The notes under the pieces: model-generated
What the model saw: only the letters and a program-made list of their open reading frames with translations
Told to the model about the DNA's origin: nothing
The model's database searches: none
Made by a program: the position numbers and the translations under genes
Assembly: GCA_019636345.1 (NCBI GenBank)
Contig: JAHBXQ010000005.1
Span: 186,001 to 250,000 of the forward strand
Length of the DNA stretch: 64,000 nt
Origin: Pirellulales bacterium
Lineage (GTDB): Bacteria > Planctomycetota > Planctomycetia > Pirellulales > Lacipirellulaceae
Direction of reading: 5' to 3'
In this document: positions 9,466 through 16,755 of the stretch, piece after piece
How positions within the stretch are numbered: position 1 is the stretch's first letter
How the letters are laid out: each line of letters starts with the position of its first letter

Positions 9466-9582
9466 ATGGCTCGTTGGCCGCGACAAGTCTGGACCACGAT
9501 TTACACCTACGGGATCATCTTCCTGGGGTTCCCGTTGCTGTGCCTGTTGGCGTACGCCTGGGTGCGAGGATGGCTGTCTTGA
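9466..9582 (+). CDS. Small single-pass membrane protein (38 residues)
   Basis: ATG at 9466 is preceded by an excellent ribosome-binding site (GGAGGGAAG). The product begins [11 protein letters not shown], continues with one hydrophobic helix ([20 protein letters not shown]) and ends WVRGWLS. Its TGA at 9580-9582 shares a base with the ATG of the next gene (TGATG), so the two are translationally coupled. The positive-inside N-terminus suggests a type II-like orientation. Function unknown; it may be a membrane partner or a leader peptide for the sugar-nucleotide enzyme. Confidence 0.65.
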
Positions 9583-11021
9583 TGAGTACGACCCCGAGTC
9601 CCACGGCCCGCCAGGAACTGGCAGCTCGCTTGCAGGCGTGCGGTCAGCAGCACTTGATCGCCTTCTGGGACGAACTCGACCCCGCCGGGCAGGCCACGTT
9701 GGCCGGGCAAATCGCGGCGATCGACTTTCCGTTCGTCGCATCGCTGTTCCGCGGCGAGGTCGCGGCTCCCGACTGGGCCGCCCTCTCCCGCCGAGCCGAG
9801 CCTCCCGTGGCGATGCGGCTGGCCGAACGCGAAGCGGGCCAAGCCTCCAGCTTCGGCGTGACCCCGGTCGCGGCCGTCGCGCGAGGCGAGGAGGCTCTCA
9901 GCGCGGGGACGATCGGCGTGCTGCTTACCGCCGGCGGACAAGGAAGTCGGCTCGGGTTCGAGAAGCCCAAGAGCCTCTACCCCATTGGCCCGTTGTCGCA
10001 CGCGACGCTGCTGCAAATCCATGTTGAGAAGGTCCGTGCCCTGGCCATGCGCTACGGCAAGCCGCTGCCGTTGTACCTGATGACCAGTCCCGCGACGCAC
10101 GACGATACGGTCGCGTTCCTGTCCGAGCACGACAACCTGGGAATGCCCGCGGACGATCTGGTCGTGTTCTGCCAGGGGACGATGCCCGCGGTCGACGCGG
10201 CGACGGGCCGGTTGCTGTTGGCCGAAAAGGGGTCGTTGTTTCTGAGCCCCGACGGCCACGGCGGCACGATCAAGGCGCTCGAGTCGAGCGGCGCGATCGA
10301 CCACATGCGGCGCCGCGGGATCGAGCACCTGTTCTATTTTCAGGTGGACAACCCGCTGGCCCCGATCGGCGACGCCGAGTTCGTCGGCTACCACCTGCTG
10401 GCAAACAGCGAGTTGACATCGCTCGCCGTGGCAAAGCAGGATCCGCACGACAAGCTGGGGAACTTTGCTCAGATCGGCGACCGACTCCACGTGATCGAGT
10501 ACAGCGATTTCCCCGCCGACGTCGCCGAACGCCGCGACGCAGCGGGAGAACTCGTCTTCTGGGCCGGCAGCGTGGCGATCCACATGTTCGACGTCGCGTT
10601 TATCGAGCGGTCGCTGACGCTCAAGGACTCGCTGCCGTTTCACGTCGCTCGCAAGAAGGTGCCGTTCGTCAATGAGCGCGGCGAGTTCGTCGAGCCGTCC
10701 GAGCCGAACGCGCTAAAGTTCGAGCGATTCATCTTCGACCTGCTGCCGCACGCCCGGCGGCCGATCGTCGTCGAGTACGCCGAAGCCGAGAGCTTCGCCC
10801 CCTTGAAGAACGCCCCGGGGGCGCCCAAGGACACGCCCGAGTACGTCCAACGGTTCCTGCTCGACCAACATCGCCGCTGGCTGACGGCGGCGGGCGCCGA
10901 TGTCGCCTCGGAGATCGACGTCGAGGTCAGCCCCCTGTGGGGAGTCGACGCCGCCGCGGTCGCCGAGCGCGTCGAACCCGGGATGCAGTTCGTCGAGTCG
11001 CAGTACCTGCGCGACGAGTAG
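9582..11021 (+). CDS. UDPGP-family UTP:sugar-1-phosphate uridylyltransferase
   Basis: 479 residues from the ATG at 9582, chosen because it overlaps the stop of the preceding small gene and because longer frames run into that gene in another frame. The UTP-binding signature [17 protein letters not shown] is at about 110-126, with [10 protein letters not shown] and [14 protein letters not shown] following, the pattern of eukaryote-like UDP-N-acetylglucosamine/glucose pyrophosphorylases (UAP1 type) rather than bacterial GalU or GlmU. It should make UDP-GlcNAc or a related UDP-sugar for envelope polymers. The exact sugar cannot be read from sequence. Confidence 0.88.
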
Positions 11022-11102: not shown

Positions 11103-11690
11103 ATGTCCTACGAAGTCGAACAAAAGTTCCGCGTCGACGACCTCGCCGCGATCCGTGTGCGGCTTGAACAGTTCGGCGCGACGCAGGGCGAGACGTGCGA
11201 CCAGTCCGACTCCTACTTTCGGCATCCGGTCCGCGACTTCGCGGCGACCGACGAGGCCTTTCGGCTCCGCCGCAGCGGGTCTTCCGGAGTGCTGACGTAC
11301 AAAGGCCCGAAGCTCGATGCGACGACCAAGACGCGGGTCGAGCACGAGACGCGACTCGCGGACGGGACGGCAAACCTCGCCACGGCCGACGCCATGCTGC
11401 AGGCGCTGGGGTTCGCCCCCACGGCGGTCGTCGCCAAGCGGCGCGAGACGTGGTCGTTCCCAGGCGTCGGCGGACCGATCGAGGTCGCCCTCGACGAGGT
11501 CGTCGGGGTCGGCACGTTCGTCGAACTCGAACTCGCCGTCGCTGAACCTGACGCCCGCTCGGCTGAGCCGGAGCTGGACGCGGCCCGTACGAACCTCGCC
11601 GCGGCAGCGGCGGCGCTGGGGCTCGATCCCGGCCGCTCGGAACGGCGCAGCTATCTCGAACTGCTGCTGGCGTCCGGCTCGCCATCGTGA
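11103..11690 (+). CDS. CYTH-domain protein (class IV adenylate cyclase-like)
   Basis: 195 residues beginning MSYEVEQKFRVDD. The ExExK signature of the CYTH fold (E-V-E-Q-K) is intact, and downstream strands supply the expected basic and acidic residues: FRLRRSGSSGVLTYKGP, TRVEHETRL, VVAKRRETWSF and IEVALDEVVGVGTFVELEL. The family binds triphosphates in a beta tunnel and includes CyaB-type cyclases, thiamine triphosphatases and inorganic triphosphatases. The size and VGTFVELE motif resemble CyaB, but activity cannot be settled here. It follows the UDPGP gene by 81 bases and may share its transcript. Confidence 0.8.
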   Translation: MSYEVEQKFRVDDLAAIRVRLEQFGATQGETCDQSDSYFRHPVRDFAATDEAFRLRRSGSSGVLTYKGPKLDATTKTRVEHETRLADGTANLATADAMLQALGFAPTAVVAKRRETWSFPGVGGPIEVALDEVVGVGTFVELELAVAEPDARSAEPELDAARTNLAAAAAALGLDPGRSERRSYLELLLASGSPS

Positions 11691-11782: not shown

Positions 11783-11986
11783 TCACGGTTTTGGCTTTCC
11801 TGCGGCCCAAGTTTTCTTGACCGGCTCGGCGAACCCCTCGACAATCCAGGAGTTCTTGTCGGGGACGGTCCGAATCACGACTCGTCGACGCTCTTGCCCA
11901 TAGTCGACAGATTTGTTGTAAGAGTCTCCGGTCCTCGTCGACGAACTTGGCGTTGCATCAGTCGGCGGCGAACGTTTACGCCGCCC
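11783..11986 (-). other. Possible small gene or gene remnant
   Basis: The 322-base gap between the CYTH gene and the next plus-strand gene contains a minus-strand open frame without ATG whose end reads like real protein: SVDYGQERRRVVI, then RTVPDKNSWIVEGFAEPVKK, ending in GKPKP at 11783. No family is recognised. It may be the 3' remnant of a lost gene. Otherwise this gap shows only the leader of the 12013 gene. Confidence 0.22.
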
Positions 11987-12012
11987 TCACTCCCTTTTTT
12001 TCGGAGCAAGTT

Positions 12013-12360
12013 ATGAAGAAGCGTTCCGCTCTCCTCGGCCTCGTGCTCGCCGGCGCCGGCATCGGCCTCGTGCTTCCCGCGGTCGTCGTGGCCCTGACGA
12101 CCGATTCGGCGGTCGCCGACTGCGGCAAATGCGGCGACAAGAAGGAAGAAGACGACGACGAAGCCCGGTTCGACGGCGACTGCGACAAAAAGAACGAAGG
12201 CGAGCTCCTCGCCGACTGCAAGAAGGGCGAAAAGCACGACTCCGACGAGCAGGTTCGCTACGACGGCGACTGCGACAAGAAGAACGAAGGCGAGCTCCTC
12301 GTCGACTGCAAGAAGGGCGAGAAGCACGACTCCGACGAGCAGAGCGTCTTGCTAGCCTAA
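12013..12360 (+). CDS. Small secreted protein made of two tandem charged repeats
   Basis: 115 residues from the ATG at 12013, after GAGCAAGTT. Residues 1-36 are a classical signal peptide (MKKRSALLGLVLAGAGIG, then VVVALTTDSAVA). The mature part has CGKCGDKK and an acidic run, then two almost identical units: RFDGDCDKKNEGELLADC... at 52-80 and RYDGDCDKKNEGELLVDC... at 82-110, each ending KKGEKHDSDEQ. The period is 30 residues (DNA 12166-12255 and 12256-12342). Each unit carries two cysteines among Asp, Glu, Lys and His, which would suit disulphides or metal binding. No known domain; a terminator follows. Function unknown. Confidence 0.7.
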   Translation: MKKRSALLGLVLAGAGIGLVLPAVVVALTTDSAVADCGKCGDKKEEDDDEARFDGDCDKKNEGELLADCKKGEKHDSDEQVRYDGDCDKKNEGELLVDCKKGEKHDSDEQSVLLA

Positions 12361-13826: not shown

Positions 13827-14004
13827 TGCGACAGCGCTCGGCCCAAACCGCACGCGGCACGGGCTCGCCGGAAAAACACGACTTCCCGTTGCGGCGTCTC
13901 CTCGCTGGAACTGCGATCGATTGCAGGAGCCCCTGCGGGACGACTGCCCCCATCGCAGCAAAATGCGGTCACGACAACGGCGGGGCCCCGGTACAATCGC
14001 GACC

Positions 14005-14802
14005 ATGATTTTTGCCGAGCCTCCCCCGTCGCCGTACGACCTGCGTTTCCGAGCCTTTGGGTTTCCGGTGCGGGTCCATCCGTACTTTTGGCTCGTCGCC
14101 GGGTTGCTGGGAATCGGGTTCGGCAGGAAGGAAAAAGAGGTCGAGCCGGCCGACTTCATGATTTGGGTCGCGGTGATGTTCGCCTCGATCCTGGTCCACG
14201 AGTTGGGCCATGCGTTCGCCCAGCGGCATTTCGGCGGGCGGCCCTGGATCACGCTCCACGCGATGGGAGGGCTCGCCTCGTGCGACGACTGCGATCGCTC
14301 GCCGCGGAGCCAGATCTTCATTTCGTTGGCTGGTCCTTTTGCGGGCTTTGCCGTGGCGCTGGCCGCGGTCGTGCTGCTCCGCGGAACAGGACACGTCGTG
14401 GGGTATCAGTTTCGCGAGGACAAAATCCCCTCCGCCGCGGATGTCGGGGCACTGGAAGGCCTCCGCATGCTCGGCGGCACGCTGTACTGGAACAAACTCG
14501 CGAATCCCCGCATGAGCGAGCTTGTGGGGAACGTCTTCTGGTTGAATATCCTGTGGGGTGTCGTCAATCTGCTTCCGATTTATCCGCTCGACGGCGGTCG
14601 CGTGTCGCGGGAGCTTTGCACGCTCGCCGGCAATCCTCGTAACGGAATCATTCTCAGCCTGCGAATTTCCATCTTCGCCGCCGCAGCCATGGCCGCCGTC
14701 GGTATCGTCGCCTGGGGCAGCTTGTTCACGGCCGTACTGTTCGGCAGTCTCGCCTACAGCAATTACCAGACGCTGCAGGCCTACTCCCGTCACGGCTGGT
14801 GA
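14005..14802 (+). CDS. Site-2-protease-like M50 membrane metallopeptidase
   Basis: 265 residues from the ATG at 14005. The zinc motif HELGH lies in a membrane helix (ASILVHELGHAFAQRHFGG), and the third zinc ligand is the Asp in NLLPIYPLDGGRV. Several more hydrophobic helices surround these (WLVAGLLGIGF, SLAGPFAGFAVALAAVVLL, ISIFAAAAMAAVGIVAW). No PDZ or CBS domain is present, so it belongs to the small stand-alone group. Such enzymes cut within membranes, often to release regulators, but the substrate is unknown. It lies about 180 bases after lpxB on the same strand. Confidence 0.85.
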   Translation: MIFAEPPPSPYDLRFRAFGFPVRVHPYFWLVAGLLGIGFGRKEKEVEPADFMIWVAVMFASILVHELGHAFAQRHFGGRPWITLHAMGGLASCDDCDRSPRSQIFISLAGPFAGFAVALAAVVLLRGTGHVVGYQFREDKIPSAADVGALEGLRMLGGTLYWNKLANPRMSELVGNVFWLNILWGVVNLLPIYPLDGGRVSRELCTLAGNPRNGIILSLRISIFAAAAMAAVGIVAWGSLFTAVLFGSLAYSNYQTLQAYSRHGW

Positions 14803-16207
14803 CCCGCGGTCGGACAATCGGCCGGACGGAGTGAATGGTCGACGGCTTGATGGCCGTCGGTGAACGGCCAACGGCTGGCAATCGCCTTCTTGCCCAAGAT
14901 TGCGCTGCTGAAGAGCCGAGAGAGCGACAAGGCATACAGGACTCAGGCAAGGTACGCTCTCCCCAACGGCTCAACCGATGGCGATCCGCGCCTTCCCTTC
15001 AGAAGTTCCCCCCGCACCGCACTGCGACGCCAGAATCATCGCAACGGAACGACGCCAAACGTCTCAGTTTGAGACAATCGAGGCGACCTTCGCCCGTTTG
15101 TTGCGATAGCGCACGCCCCTCGCCGCAACGTCGTCGCACCTTGCGATCTCAATTCGCATGGCGCACAAGGAGCGATTCGTAGCCGACTCGATCTGGTCAT
15201 GTCGAGCATGGAATCAATGCGTCGGCGGTCGTTGAAATGGTCGCTTGATCATCAAGAACAGGGCATCGCGAAAAAAATTTCCGAAATTTTTTTTCGTGTC
15301 CGTGGTCGCTCCGACGACTGCCGAACAAGCAGGGGCGAACACCTTGTCGTCGCTCCGGATGTCACTCGTTGCGAGTCGCTCACGAGCCGTTTCCAAGGAG
15401 GAGCGCCGACGACTCCGACTGGTTGTCGCCCGTTCCACGCTGAGAAAGAACCGACGGTCGGCGCACATCGATCTCGTCGTCGCAGCGGTGCGATGAGCTC
15501 GTGTCCGCAGTCGCGTAGGAGCGCCGGCTACGGGTCGTGCAAATCGAGCAGAGAGTCGAGTCAAAGCCGAGCCCGGCTCCCCGTCGTCTTGAGAAATCGC
15601 CGAGAAACAGCGAGGTTTGTGCGATTCTCCCGGCGAATTGACCAGTCCCCAAGCCCGCAGGTCAGGGCCCCGCCGATCCCGTTGCGGAGCGCCCGGCGAC
15701 GACTCTCGAGCACGAGCGCAGCGTTGCTTGGGACGGTTCAACTTCACTGTCGTCGCGAGCGCCAGGCGAGATCGGCGTGTTCGATTCGCGACGCTCACCG
15801 ATCGTCGTCGAGTCTCAGATCATCGCGCTGCACGGTGCGTACGACGACGACTTCAACGACACTCGGCGGCGCCGCTGAACGCATCGGCGCCAAGGTCGGC
15901 GCGGTCAAACTCGTCTTGACAACTCGCTGCGCACGGCGTTTCCTTGTGGAAAATGTGTTGCAGAAAAAACGCCGATGCGTACAAATACGGCGATAGAGGC
16001 ATGGAGGCGATCGATCGATTGCAACAAGAACGTGCGAAGCGCGCTCTTGCGACTTGTCAAACGACGACGCCCTAAGCCGCTTGCGAAAGAGAAACGGCAG
16101 GTCGCCCTGGAAGGGCGGCGGGATTTCTTTTGCGGCGGTCGCGTCCGATTCAACCTCGTGAGTTGCGAGGCGGCGCGAGCGCCAAGGTACTTTAAGGAGG
16201 ATTGACT
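14803..16207. other. 1.4 kb stretch without a credible gene
   Basis: Open frames exist on both strands but translate to Arg/Ser/Thr/Ala-rich strings without domain logic, an effect of abundant CGA and TCG words. Landmarks seen: hairpin GGCCGT/ACGGCC at 14852-14869 after the peptidase gene; GTCTCAGTTTGAGAC near 15060; CTTGATCATCAAG at 15243-15255; a 10-base-arm A/T palindrome at 15271-15293; and TTGACA at 15916-15921 as a possible -35 box without a good -10. I found no tRNA T-loop, RNase P or tmRNA signature. It may hold a long leader or an unrecognised RNA for the downstream H1-like gene. Confidence 0.5.
15271..15293. repeat. Perfect A/T palindrome in GC-rich noncoding DNA
   Basis: Arms AAAAAAATTT and AAATTTTTTT around a CCG loop. 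In RNA it would act as a bidirectional A/U hairpin; in DNA it is an intrinsically bent A-tract pair. Such a run is rare in this GC-rich window. Confidence 0.6.
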
Positions 16208-16414
16208 GTGGCCAAGAAGAAGAAGGCAGCCAAGAAGACGGCCAAGAAAAAGGCCGCCAAGAAGAAGACAGCCAAGAAGAAGGTCGCCAAGAAGGGCGCC
16301 AAGAAGAAGGCCGCCAAGAAGGGGACCAAGAAGAAGGCCGCCAAGAAAAAGGGCGCCAAGAAGAAGGCCGCCAAGAAGAAGACGGCTAAGAAGAAGACCG
16401 CCAAGAAGGCGTAA
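16208..16414 (+). CDS. Lysine/alanine-rich histone-H1-like protein
   Basis: 68 residues composed almost wholly of AAKK and TAKK blocks, resembling the C-terminal tail of histone H1 and bacterial H1-like proteins that condense DNA. The start is fixed by the ribosome-binding site AAGGAGG at 16194-16200: GTG at 16208 has 7-base spacing, whereas the TTG at 16202 would be only one base away. The gene stands alone, preceded by 1.4 kb of noncoding DNA and followed by a strong terminator. I infer nucleoid binding by charge; there is no folded domain to confirm it. Confidence 0.8.
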   Translation: MAKKKKAAKKTAKKKAAKKKTAKKKVAKKGAKKKAAKKGTKKKAAKKKGAKKKAAKKKTAKKKTAKKA

Positions 16415-16484
16415 CTGCGACGATTAGCGCCATGCGATCGCTCGGGCGGAGCCCGACGAACCGTGCGGCACGCTCGTTGATCTC

Positions 16485-16526
16485 AAAAGGGACCGTCGCC
16501 CTTCGGGGCGATGGTCTCTTTTTTTT
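16485..16526 (+). terminator. Strong rho-independent terminator of the H1-like gene
   Basis: GGGACCGTCGCCC, a TTCG tetraloop and GGGCGATGGTCTC form a 13-base stem followed by eight T. A shorter hairpin TCGGGCGGAGCCCGA lies upstream at 16442-16456. The rest of the 341-base gap to the next gene shows nothing else. Confidence 0.88.
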
Positions 16527-16755
16527 CTGCACGACACGGCAATCGAAGGCTCGCCCCGATCCGCAGCGACCGTCGGCGCAAGGAGCCGCCTCGGTCCCGG
16601 GGGGGTCGTCGCAGACGGCCGAGGCGCCGCTGACACGGCGCTAGCGATTTGGCAGGTCAACTTCTGGGGATCAGCGGCGACGAAAGCCTGCGCCGAGGCG
16701 AGAAAATGCGTCACCCGCGGCTGGCGATATTCGGCTCAGGCACTTGAGACGAAGT

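Follow-up and report, generated by a model that had tools for sequence, protein, structure and literature searches.

A conserved promoter-like block and structured leader upstream of an H1-like gene in a Pirellulales bacterium: a probable cis-regulatory module

The sequence at 15949-16210 in the 64,000-nucleotide stretch of Pirellulales DNA analysed here (the window) is, in our assessment, quite probably a module that regulates the adjoining H1-like gene in cis, and the other 1.1 kb ahead of that gene a spacer in which a gene found in relatives was lost or replaced and two palindromes were kept (Table 1). The module is conserved, holds its position ahead of H1-like genes, contains covarying base pairs and is nearly unique within each genome. 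We infer that its block is a promoter, that the sequence after the block is transcribed as a leader, and by what mode it may act.

Table 1. Features of the H1-like locus, in window coordinates
Feature	Position	Strand	Basis or remark
M50 peptidase family gene	13921..14802	+	Upstream neighbour; Pfam search
Gene-free spacer	14803..15940		SGNH-hydrolase-like gene at the same place in 53/68 loci examined
Palindrome P1, TCTCAGTTTGAGA	15062..15074		Retained in g1 and g6 genomes that lack the gene
A/T palindrome, GAAAAAAATTTCCGAAATTTTTTTTC	15270..15295		Similar one at the gene's FFGKKFPGIL codons in gene-bearing relatives
Promoter-like block	15949..15993	+	Sequence conservation; putative promoter role
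5' leader of the H1-like mRNA (putative)	15990..16207	+	Start placed from the -10-like hexamer
Leader hairpin GTCGCCC-TGGAA-GGGCGGC	16101..16119	+	Loop GGA at 16109-16111
U-rich tract after the hairpin	16124..16131	+	Family alignment
Second leader stem	16134..16183	+	Arms 16134-16138 / 16179-16183; family consensus GGUGA...UCACC
Shine-Dalgarno AAGGAGG	16194..16200	+	Strongly conserved in family alignments
H1-like lysine-rich gene	16208..16414	+	GTG start, 68 aa (VAKKKKAAKKTAKKK...)
Intrinsic terminator-like hairpin, 3' of the H1-like gene	16485..16522	+	Terminator prediction

Gene content and composition of the region

The original prediction described the 1.4 kb ahead of the H1-like gene as free of genes, and our searches bear this out. 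No credible gene was detected between the stop codon of the M50 peptidase gene (14802) and the GTG of the H1-like gene (16208). The longest ORFs (15199-15996 and 14835-15182 on the plus strand, 15214-15798 on the minus strand) had no Pfam family match, and a tblastx comparison of the spacer with those of 11 relatives returned a single weak antisense match (L038), which we judge to be compositional. A missed or frameshifted gene was also rejected, since a six-frame HMM and a nucleotide HMM of the gene that relatives carry here matched two short palindromes only. Both the A/T hairpin and the small palindrome at P1, noted at the outset, are real. The abundance of CGA/TCG words was not confirmed as unusual, at 87 per kb in the spacer versus 77 +/- 10 across the window, a weak enrichment (z 2.2 versus dinucleotide shuffles).

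The region falls into two parts. Conservation of positions 15949-16210 extends through the family and, in part, the order, while 14803-15940 is mostly unconserved. A single structured RNA spanning the whole spacer is ruled out, conservation being confined to the last ~260 bases. The earlier suggestions of a long leader and of an unrecognised structured RNA therefore lack support for the whole 1.4 kb, because 14803-15940 is mostly unconserved and is the place of the relatives' gene, but both are supported for 15949-16210, with its conserved position before H1-like genes and its covarying helices that match no Rfam family.

A conserved block ahead of H1-like genes

A DNA search of 59 genomes (this one and its relatives) found a single strong conserved patch, near 15944-16009 and upstream of H1-like genes. 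The core of the block consists of TGTTGCA (15956-15962) and CGTACAA (15978-15984), 15 nt apart. It can be read by eye as a -35 element TTGCAG (15958-15963) and a -10 element TACAAA (15980-15985) separated by a 16-nt spacer, which make a plausible pair, and the block as a whole is a putative promoter.

A model of the block with 49 positions, built from 13 genomes, was used to search 296 genomes of the order. Sites with E <= 0.00185 were found in 61 of these Pirellulales genomes, one such site per genome. We examined 68 loci, made up of all 61 of these and 7 of the weaker matches, which extended up to E 0.5. An H1-like ORF follows the block on the same strand at 65 of the 68 loci (59 of the 61 strong and 6 of the 7 weaker matches). 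The three exceptions were G064 and G033, both at contig ends, and G044, a weak match. A second contig of G033 bears the leader end and the H1-like gene, and in L149, where the block site lies as it does in G064, the start of the H1-like gene is found at the very end of the sequence.

Among 294 genomes drawn from the phylum, matches at E 0.001 occurred in 3, all of them Pirellulales. An exact-pattern scan of 84,980 species yielded 44 stretches, 36 of them with an H1-like gene; the other 8 came from other phyla (six), from a record labelled 'Planctomycetota' and from a 'Rhodopirellula' record. Position upstream of H1-like genes, which the original prediction had proposed to compare across relatives, is thus conserved in both data sets. 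Named carriers include Lacipirellula limnantheis and Adhaeretor mobilis, both of the Lacipirellulaceae (Pirellulales), as well as Bythopirellula polymerisocia. The leader was also found in genera g5 and g7, where a search with a relaxed pattern did not detect the block.

The near-invariance of TGTTGCA and CGTACAA, stricter than is usual for housekeeping hexamers, could mean that the block serves as an operator, or as an ECF-sigma promoter, and not as a housekeeping promoter. TTGCA and TACAA together make a possible imperfect inverted repeat, and a sigma-70 scan of 14700-16600, in which no promoter reached the thresholds, does not call the block. On the other hand, each genome has a single strong block site, and our literature search (including the available part of PMC8103513) yielded no matching motif. 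We regard this reading as a real possibility, somewhat short of an even one.

The order UGPase - LpxB - M50 - spacer - H1-like is kept in most loci, with the M50 gene found in 60 of the 68. A Pfam search assigned the H1-like product to no family. Further upstream, ARAGORN placed a tRNA-Gln at 9890-9981, within the UGPase-like ORF (9474-11021), which is probably a false call, and 11947-12360 encodes a small protein with a signal-like start and acidic CDKKNEGELL repeats.

A structured leader supported across the family

The putative leader is ~220 nt long and ends at the GTG of the H1-like gene; the fold of the window's own leader has a z of -3.98. The GGA-loop hairpin, the U-rich tract, the second stem and the Shine-Dalgarno sequence are shared by 34 family genomes. 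The loop GGA is kept in 33 of these, and a U-rich tract (at least 5 T in 8) is present in 28, compared to 6.1 expected.

Changes on both sides were observed in 11 of the 12 base pairs counted in the 34 genomes. These 12 named pairs were paired in 87.9% of cells versus 34-53% when slid by 1-3 columns, a control biased toward the proposed helices because the pairs were picked after RNAalifold on the same genomes; the alignment itself was made with MAFFT without structure. Double-change cells numbered 53, versus 17.6 in shuffles. An additional outer A/U helix around the hairpin was discarded, being present in 24 of 34 genomes versus a shuffle mean of 18.5, which is not above shuffles overall.

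The covariance search among relatives that had been proposed as a check located the leader in 42 of 43 family genomes (model R2), with strong matches limited to one per genome. In all 7 genomes outside the training set (G005, G007, G008, G019, G024, G029 and G030), the match ends at the H1-like start. Two secondary weak matches were also checked and neither precedes an H1-like gene. Of 29 loci from other families searched with the same model, L111 alone gave a strong match (E 5e-9); most of the remaining 28 gave a weak match or none, so the structure is supported family-wide and not order-wide. The leaders of other families form stems of their own, and after dereplication GGA[AT]G occurs in 11 of 23 of them, versus 5.1 expected from shuffles.

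Neither the window nor the loci of 10 relatives matched any Rfam family at the gathering score; the best match below threshold was Cis52_sRNA, on the minus strand (E 0.023). The leader resembles Rfam cis-regulatory families in that it covaries, occurs as a single copy and goes with one type of gene, and differs from them in this lack of a gathering-score match.

Possible modes of action

In the mechanism that we propose, a dedicated promoter would drive the leader of the H1-like mRNA, which would fold into the GGA-loop hairpin, followed by the U-rich tract, and a second stem that closes just before the Shine-Dalgarno sequence. Most likely, the module would set the amount of the DNA-compacting protein made after transcription has started. 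The hairpin would be the control point, either as a conditional terminator together with the U-tract or as the place where a GGA-binding protein lands, which would also cover the GGA-rich Shine-Dalgarno sequence. The module may therefore work by attenuation, through CsrA or some other protein that binds GGA, or by way of another factor.

As a transcription attenuator, the GGA hairpin and U-tract would terminate transcription in the leader until some signal allows the polymerase through. As in attenuators built on intrinsic terminators, a GC-rich hairpin precedes a U-rich tract in a 5' leader; the hairpin is called terminator-like, its stem covaries and the tract is far more frequent than expected. 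However, the tract is missing in 6 of the 34 genomes (among them G001, G011, G013 and G018) and begins ~3 nt past the stem, which is loose for a terminator. Unlike in such attenuators, the loop sequence is conserved here, and attenuation leaves the retention of its GGA unexplained. No consistent anti-terminator pairing was found when the alignments were inspected by eye, none being kept across genera. We consider attenuation of this kind rather unlikely, though worth keeping in view. A switch based on mutually exclusive pairing of the arms of the hairpin and the second stem was rejected, since by eye it was plausible in some genera and not kept in others.

The apical position of the loop GGA is what CsrA-type translational control would account for, with a CsrA dimer bridging this GGA and that of the Shine-Dalgarno sequence, as in the glgC leader. 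CsrA/RsmA targets such as E. coli glgC share this architecture of an upstream hairpin-loop GGA and a GGA-containing Shine-Dalgarno sequence (PMC7652899, in the part available). GGA[AT]G is also enriched in the leaders of other families, and all 59 genomes searched carry csrA. However, the A of an ANGGAN loop is absent, the base two before the GGA being C, T or G in every one of the 34 genomes, and A.GGA is not clearly enriched in the other families' leaders. The stem, at 7 GC-rich pairs, is also longer than that of selected CsrA ligands, which mostly have four or fewer (same part of PMC7652899). We think this mode unlikely, and because the A of ANGGAN is missing we class the leader as a cis-regulatory RNA whose mechanism is unproven and do not count it among CsrA targets. 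Across the genomes G000-G058, matches to CsrA (PF02599) numbered from 3 to 14 in each, with many paralogues, and 7 in the genome studied here.

A third possibility is feedback, in which the H1-like protein itself, a small RNA or a metabolite would bind the leader. The restriction of strong leader matches to one per genome, before H1-like genes where checked, would fit such a mode, and so would the precedent of chlamydial hctA (encoding Hc1), which is repressed post-transcriptionally by the small RNA IhtA (PMC3469542, in the part available). In both cases the protein concerned is H1-like and binds DNA, and the organisms belong to one superphylum, with post-transcriptional control known there and proposed here; in Chlamydia, however, the regulator is a small RNA that acts in trans by pairing with the beginning of the coding region, in contrast to the long structured cis leader found here. 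By this analogy feedback is conceivable, and we rate it as improbable.

The upstream spacer and its palindromes

The spacer gene of the relatives, present in 53 of the 68 loci, encodes ~275 aa and usually ends 100-165 nt before the block. Its best Pfam matches, SGNH (E 0.026) and Lipase_GDSL_2 (E 0.031), are both below the cut-off. The invariant residues GASN, GND and DPIH are consistent with an SGNH hydrolase. Whole-genome searches did not find this gene in the genome studied here or in G001, G006, G018, G003, G016 and G036, while it was present in G015, which served as the control. The SGNH-like gene appears to have been lost or replaced at this locus with the two palindromes kept.

Palindrome P1 has 2 exact sites in 5.18 Mb, a rarity measured for P1 alone, and is present in 19 of the 68 loci overall. 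The four genomes without the gene in genera g1 and g6 all have P1 (TCTCANNNTGAGA), at 885-932 nt before the block; in gene-bearing genomes that have it, the distance is 888-904 nt and P1 falls in the SQIETRE codons of the gene. This is suggestive of a spacer length kept without the gene, in two genera only. Other gene-less lineages are shorter, with ~530 nt from M50 to block in G003 and G016 and ~220 in G036 and G071. Among gene-less genomes the A/T palindrome was found in G000, G001, G006 and G003, and was not found by pattern in G018. In L032 (G001, the second genome of this genus), P1 near 11340-11366 is extended into a perfect 12-bp inverted repeat, GATTGCGTCTCA-GAT-TGAGACGCAATC.

Whether 14803-15940 is simply what decay has left of the SGNH-like gene, without remaining function, is, in our view, evenly balanced. 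The gene's presence at this place in most loci, its absence from the genome studied here and the alignment of the spacer palindromes with gene positions all suit decay, but beyond the two palindromes the spacer aligns with the gene no better than a reverse-complement control does. The tail of the spacer, considered separately as a remnant of the gene, was rejected on the same control. Decay also sits poorly with the persistence of P1 in the gene-less g1 and g6 genomes, which stay apart in a tree built from M50 and LpxB, at weak support (0.40-0.72). Since P1 is kept in these unjoined lineages, the two palindromes may themselves have a role, and a chromosome-organisation site, as raised by the original prediction, could conceivably lie there.

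Implications for H1-like proteins in planctomycetes

The two palindromes stand 0.6-0.9 kb upstream, within the neighbouring gene in most relatives. A broader and more speculative reading, which we put forward only tentatively, is that of an H1-gene leader family in which one promoter and structured leader per genome, present throughout the planctomycete family and in parts order-wide, would tune chromosome compaction once transcription has begun, with the upstream palindromes, exposed here by the loss of the neighbouring gene, as remote control or chromosome sites of this locus.

We found no account of how H1-like genes of planctomycetes are promoted or of any leader that they have in the literature searched, which was mostly non-subscription and included the available parts of PMC3469542, PMC7652899, PMC8103513 and PMC3440768; within that literature, the control of planctomycete H1-like proteins is apparently undescribed so far. 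The best-known bacterial H1-like gene of the same superphylum is chlamydial hctA, which is held back after transcription (PMC3469542, in the part available). A conserved leader in free-living, cultivated relatives (Lacipirellula, Adhaeretor and Bythopirellula carry the block) would make post-transcriptional control of H1-like genes testable outside an obligate parasite.
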